Part shown: in pieces, positions 26,000 through 31,107 of the stretch | Layout of the letters: every line of letters starts with the position of its first letter | How positions within the stretch are numbered: position 1 is the first letter of the stretch | DNA from: Chloroflexota bacterium | Lineage (GTDB): Bacteria; Chloroflexota; UBA11872; VXOZ01 | Length of the DNA stretch: 52,141 bases | Direction of reading: 5' to 3' | Assembly (NCBI GenBank): GCA_028874195.1 | Contig: JAPPLM010000002.1 | Coordinates: 1-52,141 of the forward strand | Position numbers and translations under genes: made by a program | Notes under the pieces: model-generated | What the model saw: only the letters and a program-made list of their open reading frames with translations | Told to the model about the DNA's origin: nothing | Database searches by the model: none

Positions 26000-27580
26000 G
26001 TGAAGCGTATCGTTCTCGTGCTCGTATTCGCAGTGGGTGTTGCCGCCTGCGGCGCAGAAGAGGAGGCAAGAATAGCACCGGCGCCGACGGCGCAGCCAAC
26101 CGCTACGCCACTGCCAACGCCAAGACCCAAACCGACGGCGCGACCCAGTCCGACACGCGTAGCACAACCGACGCCCGCGCCGCTCCGCGAATACGTCGTC
26201 CAACACGGCGACACCCTCTACTCCCTCGCGCGCCGCTTCGGTGTTGGACTGCATGCGCTCGCTGAATTCAACCGGATTGCGGATCCGAGGAAAATCTACG
26301 TCGGCCAACGGTTGTTCATCCCATCCGACGCAATCGTGGCGACTACGCCGCCGGCAAGCCCCACGCCGCCGCGCGTCCACGGTGTCGATTGCGCCTTCCG
26401 GTTCGGCTTCAAGGAACTCTACGATCTCATCCCCGACACTGTTGGTCAATGCCTGGAAAATGAGGAGTATAACGTCAATGGCGATAGCTTTCAACGAACT
26501 ACCGGCGGTCTCTTGGTTTGGCAAAAAGCTGACAATCTAACCACGTTCACAGATGGTAACTGGACCTGGATACACAGGTCGGACGGCCTCGAGAAAAAGC
26601 GTAATAGCGACCGCTTCGTTTGGGACCCGCTGCTGGCACAGGTGCTTGAGACGCTGCGAACTACGCCGACCGGCGAGAGAGTCTACACGCTTTTCATACA
26701 GTCGGGCGCCACGGCACAATTTGAGCCATCGGAGAAGTTTGTATCCCGCTATTTTCCCTTCCGCAATCTCATTGTCATTAATGAACAGTACCGTAACGAA
26801 AGCCCCGAGGCGCTCGCCCACACGCTCATCTGGCCGGCGCTAGGACTCTACTACGAGGCCGAGCGGTCGCGATCCTGGGGCGAGTGCATGGAGCGCGTGA
26901 TCGACCAAGAGACCGCGCAAGCCCAGTGGTGGCGCGAACTGTTTGGTGAGGGCGGCAAGAGCTATCCCACGGATTTGGAGCGATGGGCAAACTACGAAGT
27001 GACCCTGCTTGTCAATGAGAGCCTGCGCCACTGGGTACAGCTAAGCCCTCATTTTCGAGAACAGTGCGCACGATACGGCGCGCCGCCGCAGCGCATCGAC
27101 CCGACGCTCGCAAAGGCGTACCGTACGGCGTTGATGGGAGGCGAATCCGCGCTGGGTAAGGCGGCGGCCGCAATGGTCATTGCCGCCGAAACGGATGTCG
27201 TGTTCGGGCCGTCGGATGGATGGAATGGTCGCTATTCGCCGATTCGTAACCGTATCGAAGTTAACGAAGAACTTCGCGACGCAAGCGCTGACGTGCTCGC
27301 AGCCGTGCTCATACACGAGACCCTGCACGTGGCACAGTATCAGAAGTGGAGCGGACGGCGCTCGCCGGCCGAGTGTGTCGAAGATGAGATTGAAGCGTTC
27401 GCCGCTGAAGCCCAATGGTGGGCAGAACAGCACGGCGACGACGGCAAAGAGGAACAAAGTGAAGCCGAGCGGCACCTGAACGGCCTGTTACTCGCCTGGC
27501 AGCTCGGAATGCTGGAAGCGTTCGTACTGCTAAGTGACAATTATCAGGAACAATGCTTGGGCGGCGTGGTAAATTCATAA
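26000..27580 (+). CDS. LysM lipoprotein with duplicated zincin-like domain
   Basis: A 526-residue surface lipoprotein. The signal peptide ends in VAAC (C17); a Pro/Thr-rich linker (about 26-62) leads to a LysM domain (about 64-108) for peptidoglycan binding. A domain at about 128-206 carries TTGGLLVWQKADN and FTDGNWTW, a pattern I associate with Chloroflexi surface proteins. Two related C-terminal halves follow. The second (about 390-521) has HETLH (439-443) and a downstream Glu-rich helix ending in EAQWW, as in zinc metallopeptidases. The first (about 237-358) has HTLIW in place of HETLH and is probably inactive. GTG start behind AAGGG. Likely an anchored peptidase or cell-wall protein; the substrate is unknown. 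Confidence 0.78.
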   Translation: MKRIVLVLVFAVGVAACGAEEEARIAPAPTAQPTATPLPTPRPKPTARPSPTRVAQPTPAPLREYVVQHGDTLYSLARRFGVGLHALAEFNRIADPRKIYVGQRLFIPSDAIVATTPPASPTPPRVHGVDCAFRFGFKELYDLIPDTVGQCLENEEYNVNGDSFQRTTGGLLVWQKADNLTTFTDGNWTWIHRSDGLEKKRNSDRFVWDPLLAQVLETLRTTPTGERVYTLFIQSGATAQFEPSEKFVSRYFPFRNLIVINEQYRNESPEALAHTLIWPALGLYYEAERSRSWGECMERVIDQETAQAQWWRELFGEGGKSYPTDLERWANYEVTLLVNESLRHWVQLSPHFREQCARYGAPPQRIDPTLAKAYRTALMGGESALGKAAAAMVIAAETDVVFGPSDGWNGRYSPIRNRIEVNEELRDASADVLAAVLIHETLHVAQYQKWSGRRSPAECVEDEIEAFAAEAQWWAEQHGDDGKEEQSEAERHLNGLLLAWQLGMLEAFVLLSDNYQEQCLGGVVNS

Positions 27581-27816: not shown

Positions 27817-28260
27817 TCACGGTCCGGAGTCGAGCGGCAGGTACCCGAGCAACTCCGGCTCGATCTCTTCCAGCGGCAGCGCCTCATGGCAGATGGTGAT
27901 GTCGGGAGAAGGCGCGGCAGGGTGCCAAACGGCTCGCCCCACCACCAAATTGTCGGCAACGAAGAATACCAGCACCTGGGCGCACGGGTAGCGGGCATGA
28001 AGAAATTCGGCAAAGGGCAAAATGCGCCCGCAGCGTCCCTCATCGTCGAGCCCATGCCAAAACGCTATTGACGGTTCGTCCAGCGGCATGACGATTACGT
28101 TGGCGACACTCACCGCACGCCGGTATGCCGCATCTTCACCCGCCTCATCCATGTTCTCAGGCGCTAGTGAAAGGTAGGCGTCGCAATTCCACTGCTCCCG
28201 CTTCTCCTGGCGAGAGATGAGATCCGCCGCCGCGCGCGCTTCTCGGTTATTGCCCGCCAT
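27817..28260 (-). CDS. Hypothetical protein
   Basis: A 147-residue protein I do not recognise. It has no signal peptide or membrane segment. The N-terminal third is polar and helical (EARAAADLISRQEKREQ), and the rest has hydrophobic strands (VSVANVIVMPL, CAQVLVFFVADNLVVG) and an acidic Pro-rich end, suggesting a small alpha/beta domain. An ATG start with GGCAGG about ten bases upstream is plausible. It is the only minus-strand gene between two plus-strand lipoprotein genes, so it stands alone. Confidence 0.5.
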   Translation of the reverse strand: MAGNNREARAAADLISRQEKREQWNCDAYLSLAPENMDEAGEDAAYRRAVSVANVIVMPLDEPSIAFWHGLDDEGRCGRILPFAEFLHARYPCAQVLVFFVADNLVVGRAVWHPAAPSPDITICHEALPLEEIEPELLGYLPLDSGP

Positions 28261-28848
28261 CTAAATTCTGCCTGCCATGAGTGCATAACGCTGCCTTCTT
28301 CAATATTGTAGCGCATACTTTCTCTGTCAGTGCCGGTACGATGAGCCTCTCCCTGTTCCGCGCTTGGCACAAGCCCCAGTGCTGCAGTATTGCTCGCGAG
28401 GTAGCACGCTCGCCATCGCCTCAAGGCAAGCAGGCGCGCATCTCCCTTTCCCTAACTCTTGCCGCCACCTTCTCTTGACAGACCACTGTTTCTTATGCAA
28501 AATAGCCGTGCGGTGGTGTGGAAGGTATCTGCCGTTGGCGTTTCCTAGCCTTTGCCCGGCGAGAGGCTCAAGAAGACTCTGCAGTAGCAATTCAGCGCAT
28601 TCTCGAATACCCCTTTCTCTGGGTGCCTGAGAGCACAGATGATGGGACATTCCCAGCACTTGCGGCCTGCTTCCCAATTGCGCTGCAACGCCGTATCGAG
28701 TTCAGCCTCGGATAGGCTGCCCGCCAGAGGCTGAAAGCGCTCGACCGCAACGCACTCCCATACCGCCTGGGGGGCAACAGGCTCCCAGCGCAAAAGCGAT
28801 AAGGGCCGGAGCGGGAATCGCCGCCGCGCAATTAAGGAGATTGCCGAA
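28261..28848. other. Long spacer upstream of the cysteine-repeat lipoprotein
   Basis: About 590 bases separate the divergent genes at 27817 and 28849. No repeat family or clear promoter is recognised. The only coding candidate is the minus-strand frame at 28545-28862, listed separately. AAGGAG lies nine bases before the GTG of the downstream lipoprotein gene. Confidence 0.5.
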
Positions 28849-28862
28849 GTGAGCGCATTCAC
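28545..28862 (-). CDS. Possible small hypothetical protein or gene remnant
   Basis: A 105-codon frame whose C-terminal half reads like a protein (SLSEAELDTALQRNWEAG, CWECPIICALRHPEKG), with codon choice similar to the neighbours. Its GTG start overlaps the first 14 bases of the opposite-strand lipoprotein gene and has no clear ribosome-binding site. It may be a decayed gene or chance. I do not recognise a family. Confidence 0.25.
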   Translation of the reverse strand: MNALTSAISLIARRRFPLRPLSLLRWEPVAPQAVWECVAVERFQPLAGSLSEAELDTALQRNWEAGRKCWECPIICALRHPEKGVFENALNCYCRVFLSLSPGKG

Positions 28863-31107
28863 CTCTCATATCCGTTGGTTGGCGGTCTTGGGAGTCCTGC
28901 TCCTGATTGTGATTCTAAGCGCCTGTGGTGAGATTCCGGCGCTCACTGCTACTCCCGTAGCTACGAGCACGCCGTCGCCGACGCCCATCCCCGTGACTCC
29001 AACGCCGGAGCCGACCCCCGCCCCTATTGCCGAGCTTGATATCAGCATCGATAGCGATACCGTTTGGCGGGAAGTGTTCGCTACGCTCACCCCCGCCGAG
29101 CAAGCGTGCATCCGCGATGCGTTGGGTGATGAGTTGGAATCGGCGCTGGGCCGGCCGGTCATGAGCGAGAGTGACGCGCCGGAGCAGTGGGAGGTTTCTC
29201 TCTTTTCCTGTCTCGCTCCGGAAACTGCCCGCGCCGTCTACCTCTCTGTTGTGGTCACTGAAATGCAGGATGAGGTGGAGCTGAGCGAGAGCGAGCTGGC
29301 CTGCTTGCGGGAGTCGATGGCCAGTACCGACGTGGCCGCCGTGGTTGCCGCCATGGTAGCCGACGCAGACGACCGCACGGCGGCTGCGGAGTTCTTTACG
29401 GACTTCATACGCTGCGTGCCGGACCTGCTCCTTACGACGATGATCGCGGAAATGGGGTTGGAGAGGGAAGATTTGAGCGCGGACGAAGTGTCCTGTTTGC
29501 GCGGGTTGCTGGCCGATGTCGACTGGGGCGCCTTGCTCTTCGCTGATGCCGAAGAAGACGTCGAGGCGTATGCCAGCTTCGGCATCGGCGTCATTTCTTG
29601 CATTCCGGCCCTGCTCCTGTCCAGCGCGCTGGGTGAAGAGGTGGAGTTGAGCGAGGCGGAAGCGTCCTGCCTGCGGGAGGCGTTCGCCGCTATCGACGTG
29701 ACCGCCCTGCTCACGGCCGCTGACGACCTCGCCGGGTTTGCGGCGCTGGCGCCGGACCTGGTGGGATGTGTCCCGGACCTGTTCGTCTCCCTCTTCATCG
29801 CGGAAACGGGGGCGAGCGTAGAAGACTTGAGCGAGGAGGAGCGGGACTGCTTGCGAGAGTCAATCGTCGCTTTCGACTGGGCGGCCGTGGTTGCCGAAGA
29901 TCCTACTGCCGTGTCCGCGGCGTCCTCTGCCTTCTTTTCTTGCGTTCCGGGCCTCCTCCTGTCCGCCGCGATCGGGGAGGACGTAGAACTGAGTGAGGAG
30001 GAAGCGTCCTGCCTACGGGAGGCGTTCGCCGCTATCGACGTGACCACCCTGATTGCCTCCCCGGACGACCCCGACGCGGCTGTGAAGTCGGCCGCGGCGC
30101 TGCTGAACTGCGCTCCGCGTCTGATCTTTGCCGGACTGACCGAGGATGGCGAGGCGTTGAGCGAGGAAGAAGTGTCCTGCCTCCAAGAACTGGTGGCGGC
30201 TACCGACATGGCCGCCCTGATCGCCTCCCCCGAAGACTCCGCAGCGTACGTGAAGTTCGGCGCCGGGCTGTTATTCTGCGTTCCAGACCTGTTCAGCGCT
30301 GAGGATGAGGAAGACCCAGCCTCAGTCTCCGACGGCGTCGACGACTACGCCGACTCCGTTGAGGAGGCCACCGCTGTGACGGTCGGGGAGGCTGTGCCAG
30401 GCGCGCTGGACTTCACGAACGACATCGACGTCTTCGTGTTCCAGGCAGAGGAGGGCGTGTTCTACTGGATAGACGTGTCATTGGGAACGCTCTCCGATTC
30501 GCTGGTGGGGCTGTATGACGCCGATGAGTTGTTGTTGGCTTTCAACGACGATCACGCAGATACGCTGGCCTCGCGCATCGTTTGGAGAGCGCCGCGCTCG
30601 GGTACGTACTACGTCGCGGTGGAAGGCTACGACACCGGTTCGTATACTCTAACATTGGCCGTAACCGACGTCACGGACGACCACGCAAGCGCAGTGGAAG
30701 GTGCAACGACCGTTGCGGTCGGGGAAGCCGTGCCGGGCGCGCTGGACTACACGGACGACATCGACGTCTTCGTGTTTCAGGCAGAGGAGGGCGTATTCTA
30801 CCAGATAGACGTGGCGTTGGGAACGCTCTCAGACTCACTGGTGTATCTGTATGACGCCGACGAGTTGCTGCTGACCTTCAATGACGATCACAGTGACTCC
30901 CTGGCCTCGCGCATCGTTTGGGAAGCGCCGCGCTCGGGCGAATACTACGTCGCGGTGGAGGGCTACGACATCGGTTCGTATACTCTGACGGTGGCCGTAG
31001 CCACGCCTATACCCACGCCGCCTGAAGAGAACACCGAAGCGATCGAGGACGCCACGTCATTGACCATTGCCTCCGTCAGACCGGCCGGTGACGCTTCTGC
31101 GGAGTGA
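28849..31107 (+). CDS. Acidic lipoprotein with seven Cys-pair repeats and two PPC domains
   Basis: A 752-residue exported lipoprotein. The signal peptide ends in LSAC with C26, followed by a Thr/Pro linker to about residue 60. Residues 75-485 hold seven repeats of about 55-65 residues, each with LSxxExxCLRE and, about 33 residues on, CVPDL. The cysteine pairs are 87/121, 152/189, 216/251, 274/307, 334/365, 388/421 and 444/477. Two near-identical PPC (pre-peptidase C-terminal) beta domains follow at about 512-605 and 624-717, each with DIDVFVFQAEEGVFY and YYVAVEGYD. A third PPC start (EAIEDATSLTIAS) is cut off by the stop. The protein is very acidic. GTG start behind AAGGAG. Probably a surface or adhesion protein; function unknown. 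Confidence 0.8.
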   Translation: MSAFTSHIRWLAVLGVLLLIVILSACGEIPALTATPVATSTPSPTPIPVTPTPEPTPAPIAELDISIDSDTVWREVFATLTPAEQACIRDALGDELESALGRPVMSESDAPEQWEVSLFSCLAPETARAVYLSVVVTEMQDEVELSESELACLRESMASTDVAAVVAAMVADADDRTAAAEFFTDFIRCVPDLLLTTMIAEMGLEREDLSADEVSCLRGLLADVDWGALLFADAEEDVEAYASFGIGVISCIPALLLSSALGEEVELSEAEASCLREAFAAIDVTALLTAADDLAGFAALAPDLVGCVPDLFVSLFIAETGASVEDLSEEERDCLRESIVAFDWAAVVAEDPTAVSAASSAFFSCVPGLLLSAAIGEDVELSEEEASCLREAFAAIDVTTLIASPDDPDAAVKSAAALLNCAPRLIFAGLTEDGEALSEEEVSCLQELVAATDMAALIASPEDSAAYVKFGAGLLFCVPDLFSAEDEEDPASVSDGVDDYADSVEEATAVTVGEAVPGALDFTNDIDVFVFQAEEGVFYWIDVSLGTLSDSLVGLYDADELLLAFNDDHADTLASRIVWRAPRSGTYYVAVEGYDTGSYTLTLAVTDVTDDHASAVEGATTVAVGEAVPGALDYTDDIDVFVFQAEEGVFYQIDVALGTLSDSLVYLYDADELLLTFNDDHSDSLASRIVWEAPRSGEYYVAVEGYDIGSYTLTVAVATPIPTPPEENTEAIEDATSLTIASVRPAGDASAE

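Follow-up and report, generated by a model that had tools for sequence, protein, structure and literature searches.

The window, by which we mean the whole stretch of 52,141 nucleotides analyzed, belongs to a 3.5-Mb Chloroflexota genome and carries on its forward strand an open reading frame for a protein of 752 amino acids, with a GTG start codon, a TGA stop codon, and, as read in the sequence, AAGGAG 9 bases upstream of the start (Table 1). The protein is made up of a signal peptide with a lipobox, a Pro/Thr linker, seven repeats, two bacterial pre-peptidase C-terminal (PPC) domains, and a short tail, in this order. The peptide LLLIVILSAC ends at Cys26 and agrees with the lipobox pattern L-[AS]-[AG]-C after a signal peptide. 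This lipobox is kept in the four orthologs of the genus as well as in nearly all members of the wider family described below, which supports the view of the preliminary description that the product is a bacterial lipoprotein. Three further genomes of the genus hold orthologs, which are about 79 to 80% identical (one lies on contig JAAXIC010000017.1), and the window gene is under purifying selection, with a dN/dS of 0.27 to 0.31 for the repeats in pairs with the window. A C-terminal frameshift was considered as the cause of the short tail after the second PPC domain and was rejected, as two orthologs end alike.

Table 1. Coordinates of the lipoprotein gene and its parts in the window
Feature	Position	Strand	Basis
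Ribosome-binding site AAGGAG	28834..28839	+	read in sequence
Whole gene, 752 aa	28849..31107	+	ORF, orthologs, dN/dS
Signal peptide and lipobox LSAC, predicted lipid-anchor Cys26	28849..28926	+	sequence, orthologs, family
Pro/Thr-rich flexible linker, aa 27-70	28927..29058	+	sequence; similar linker in most family members
Repeat 1 (N-terminal type), Cys87/Cys121	29080..29274	+	sequence, profile, repeat comparison
Repeat 2, Cys152/Cys189	29275..29466	+	sequence, profile, repeat comparison
Repeat 3, Cys216/Cys251	29467..29640	+	sequence, profile
Repeat 4, Cys274/Cys307	29641..29820	+	sequence, profile; modeled together with repeat 5
Repeat 5, Cys334/Cys365	29821..29982	+	sequence, profile, model with repeat 4
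Repeat 6, Cys388/Cys421	29983..30150	+	sequence, profile
Repeat 7 (C-terminal type), Cys444/Cys477	30151..30300	+	sequence, profile, repeat comparison
PPC domain 1 (Pfam best stretch aa 526-593)	30334..30666	+	PF04151
PPC domain 2	30667..31002	+	second PF04151 stretch; internal repeat of PPC domain 1

Besides the lipobox cysteine, the protein contains exactly 14 cysteines, one pair in each of the seven repeats, as had been described before; the PPC part has none. The two cysteines are 34, 37, 35, 33, 31, 33, and 33 residues apart within repeats 1 to 7, and the second cysteine of one repeat is 31, 27, 23, 27, 23, and 23 residues from the first cysteine of the next. The regular pairing noted earlier, with the second cysteine 31 to 37 residues on, is thus borne out, and spacings within the observed ranges (31 to 37 and 23 to 31) never arose when 14 cysteines were placed at random 2 million times. 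A single repeat profile yields seven tandem matches along the protein, and four columns (L, E, C, and C) are invariant when the seven repeats are aligned. Repeats 2 to 7 share the motif LSxxExxCLR ... CxPxL, and the second cysteine stands in CVPDL, CIPAL, CVPDL, CVPGL, CAPRL, and CVPDL, respectively. The motif pair LSxxExxCLRE and C(V/I)PDL first proposed for all repeats therefore applies to repeats 2 to 7, with a looser second half, and not to repeat 1, which is a separate type (LTPAEQACIRD ... FSCLAPE). The DNA identity among repeats 2 to 7 is 54 to 68%, whereas repeat 1 is only 38 to 47% identical to the others, which marks the repeats as old duplications and not a recent tandem array. The repeat region is strongly acidic, with a net charge of -66 over 406 amino acids.

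The PPC domains were identified by PF04151, with two matching stretches and a score of 38 bits against a gathering cutoff of 25.9 (E value of 3.2e-9). These matches lie distal to the repeats, in agreement with the PPC cap proposed in the preliminary description, and span only about amino acids 496 to 718; the seven repeats are unrelated to PPC. The window protein carries no protease domain. Some of its relatives hold further PPC copies. A PPC domain of Vibrio collagenase has been shown experimentally to bind collagen (PMC8799719).

Relatives were sought with two kinds of profile, one built from the repeat and one from the first 150 to 180 residues, and we defined the family by a lipobox, a linker, an N-terminal-type first repeat (W-x-x-x-F ... 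E-x-x-C-I/L-R), and further Cys-pair repeats, all of which the window protein possesses. By these features, the window gene belongs to a widespread, unnamed lipoprotein family found in at least two classes of Chloroflexota. Members have two to seven Cys-pair repeats, with the module either on its own or joined to PPC, PQQ propeller, TolB-like propeller, LRR, periplasmic-binding, or apparent thioredoxin-like domains, which are mostly extracellular binding types. The finding thus exceeds the preliminary description, in that the module recurs across a family, attached to many different surface domains. In the class of the window, one protein combines five pairs with at least seven PPC domains (G011), others combine six pairs with a PQQ propeller (G007 to G010 and G018), and a standalone form has about three pairs (G026 and G027). 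The TolB-like propeller and LRR of the PQQ proteins were scored in both members that were scanned and were read in the sequence of G007, and PQQ_2, PD40, and LRR were matched in a module-bearing protein. At an E value of ≤1e-6, 42 of the 393 genomes from the second class (19 of 226 genera) have a match, and one genome has as many as eight. Most second-class members read consist of a lipobox, a linker, and three or four pairs and nothing else; others add Peripla_BP_6, PQQ_2, PPC, or LRR. One second-class protein (L145) has seven pairs and PPC like the window protein and is 42% identical to it over the repeat region, so this architecture would be either old or transferred.

Several of the related proteins have further features. 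Those at L050:5103-11264 (minus strand), L080, L081, L082, and L083 are about 1930 to 2050 amino acids long and contain, in addition to the module, PQQ and TolB-like propellers and a plant-type LRR array. The lipobox cysteine is seemingly missing in the PQQ/LRR proteins of G008 to G010. The lipoprotein at L085:1171-3447 (plus strand) unites the Cys-pair module, a PPC-like region, and Peripla_BP_6, a branched-chain-type receptor domain. Two lipoproteins, at L158:310-2043 (plus strand) and L160, have the module at the C terminus. The N-terminal part of the former reads by eye as thioredoxin-like (CTNAVC) and had no Pfam or NCBIfam match. Matches in the genome of the window itself, on C29 and C65, are linker or out-of-frame matches and not paralogs.

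Comparison of individual repeats suggests how the family is built. The first repeat of each compared member scores best against repeat 1 of the window protein, and the last repeat of L145, G011, L150, L152, and L085 scores best against repeat 7, so that members open with an N-terminal type and close with a C-terminal type, with internal repeats in varying number between them. A two-repeat dyad is the unit of duplication in L140 and L142, where repeat 1 resembles repeat 3 and repeat 2 resembles repeat 4; this is a separate route of expansion. The PQQ-LRR proteins retain a trace of the same alternation.

We additionally examined whether the repeat corresponds to a known family or fold. The repeats of the window protein had no Pfam or NCBIfam match at E values up to 10 (chance-level matches occurred elsewhere only), ten diverse family members had none in common over the repeats, and the PDB gave no match by sequence. 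The earlier statement that no named family covers the repeat holds in these libraries, and a literature search, mainly of openly accessible journals, found the repeat described nowhere. Foldseek comparison of the repeat models with the PDB and viral models returned nothing at an E value of ≤0.001, and VIA-align gave no Z score of 5 or more. The best VIA-align overlays, on the DnaK lid (Z of 4.8) and pieces of albumin (Z of 4.5), were treated as common helical arrangements. Human serum albumin is likewise all-helical and disulfide-rich. However, the overlay is weak and partial (root mean square deviation of 4.2 over 66 residues), a Z score so low is common for helical models, and there is no sequence match to the repeats; it is not evidence of a relationship. 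The cysteine pattern and domain size of albumin are also unlike those of the Cys-pair repeat. The missing fold match does not prove a new fold.

Three helical families were considered and rejected. A saposin-like domain has six cysteines in three disulfides per about 80 residues, compared to two cysteines per about 57 residues here, and no saposin model matched; twin CX9C (CHCH) proteins, which have two CX9C motifs in a hairpin, do not fit spacings of 31 to 37 and 23 to 31; and an EF-hand, suggested by the calmodulin-like LSEEExxCLREAF, lacks support from a DxDxDG loop or a Pfam match. The closest parallels in overall design are LRR or PQQ-propeller surface lipoproteins and adhesins, which also combine a lipid anchor, a linker, tandem repeats, and accessory binding domains; some relatives of the window protein themselves carry LRR and PQQ. 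In contrast to those proteins, the window repeat has its own motif, with one Cys pair and four predicted helices per about 57 residues, and none of the family libraries searched contains it. A scan of viral contigs gave no relative, so a phage origin is unsupported.

Structural models were obtained with AlphaFold2 for amino acids 62 to 490, using the window protein and one ortholog (L013; two aligned sequences; pLDDT of 74.6 and pTM of 0.57), and for repeats 4 and 5, using six aligned rows (pLDDT of 81.8 and pTM of 0.69). The sequences behind both models came from the window and L013, and confidence is moderate, with alignments of two and six sequences. In both models, each repeat folds into four short helices and the cysteines keep one register throughout, which speaks against the single helical hairpin per repeat proposed earlier. 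Helix A bears the first cysteine after the LSxxE capping motif, helix B is short, helix C ends at the second cysteine, and helix D follows.

An even number of cysteines follows the lipobox in the 27 proteins first examined, with a single exception (the true lipobox of a few was assigned by eye). The same holds for every clear lipoprotein of a second set, in which some reading frames are cut by the end of the locus. As these proteins are homologous, the even counts are not independent. The exception is the G005 ortholog, in which Cys152 is replaced by Gly and the partner cysteine is kept; across the four orthologs of the genus, 55 of 56 repeat cysteines are conserved. At least the Cys152 bond would thus be dispensable. 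Among 92 repeats at the second-set loci, 81 align both cysteines, none substitutes one, and 11 are partial alignments, although the repeat profile was built on Cys-defined slices and is biased toward aligned pairs. The family-wide even counts support the disulfide pairing suggested in the preliminary description, most simply within a repeat.

In our best reading, held with moderate confidence, the module serves, on a flexible tether, as a disulfide-stabilized helical scaffold for the display of binding domains or as a supplement to them. The lipid on Cys26 would anchor the exported protein outside the cytoplasmic membrane, and the Pro/Thr linker would then carry seven tandem alpha-helical repeats followed by two PPC beta domains. 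Each repeat would most likely be closed by one disulfide from helix A (LSxxExxC) to the end of helix C (C-x-P). The acidic scaffold may hold the PPC domains off the membrane to bind a polymer, and it probably provides a binding surface of its own. Such a lipid-anchored display scaffold is in keeping with the fusions to other domains, the differing repeat numbers, and the PPC tip. However, many members end after the module, and display of a distal domain therefore cannot be its general role. These standalone members argue against a purely passive stalk; the module is probably more than a passive rod (the rod envisaged before is itself an interpretation) and must also act by itself, most likely by binding.

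It is possible, though on balance doubtful, that ligand binding or a receptor function resides in the Cys-pair module itself, with the linker as a spacer and PPC, PQQ, LRR, and the other domains as accessories. The many members with only three or four repeats after the linker, the up to eight matches in single genomes, and the C-terminal position of the module in L158 and L160 would suit this, as would the first repeat with W-x-x-x-F, which keeps its identity between distant members. However, no ligand, pocket, or conserved polar residue set was found in the repeats, conservation falls mostly on cysteines and on helix-capping or core residues, and a repeat number ranging from two to seven suits a scaffold. 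Disulfides could also join the second cysteine of one repeat to the first of the next, forming a ladder along the solenoid, and the gap of 23 to 31 residues between repeats is as regular as that within them. This is unlikely, because the first cysteine of a member is of the first type and its last cysteine is of the second: pairing within repeats uses all of them, but a ladder leaves two, unpaired or paired across the whole array, and yet both are kept in proteins of two to seven repeats. Least probable is that the cysteines form no disulfides and instead bind metal, heme, or another cofactor or are redox-active; VKOR oxidase was not found in the genome of the window and an apparent thioredoxin-like domain with CxxxxC is fused in L158, but each repeat has one isolated pair 31 to 37 residues apart with no CxxC, CxxCH, or His partner motif, and the even counts hold with no other conserved metal ligand.

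Returning to the tethered scaffold, we more tentatively propose that the repeat is a previously undescribed alpha-helical fold that forms an expandable, disulfide-closed scaffold and serves as a general-purpose module for surface recognition and display in Chloroflexota, recombined with many sensor and binding domains. In marine and host-associated habitats, Chloroflexota are abundant, with hardly any in culture, and to our knowledge little of what they carry on their surfaces has been described. The unnamed module, carried by about one in ten sampled genomes of one class, offers a good way to approach these surfaces. With a profile of the module, many proteins now called hypothetical could be annotated, and the short members of three repeats are of a size suited to structure determination and disulfide mapping.

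Within its genus, the gene is an accessory gene for a predicted surface protein. It is present in four of six genomes, one of the two genomes without it being only 69% complete. In the window, its neighbors are a conserved small ORF on one side and mutL on the other, and it has no conserved partner operon. G003 lacks the lipoprotein gene, and mutL there directly adjoins the small ORF; in G004 the ortholog is at another place (L052:9160-14322), where it adjoins AIM24-like genes and, by eye, an apparent CRISPR-Cas cas3/cse1 locus. Upstream of the window gene, positions 26000 to 27580 (plus strand) encode a lipoprotein with LysM (PF01476) and a weak, below-cutoff match to the metallopeptidase-like DUF6782; it was not found at the syntenic place in G002 and G003 and is present in G005. 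Positions 27817 to 28260 (minus strand) hold a conserved 147-amino-acid ORF with no Pfam match, which is kept beside the locus in G002, G003, and G005.
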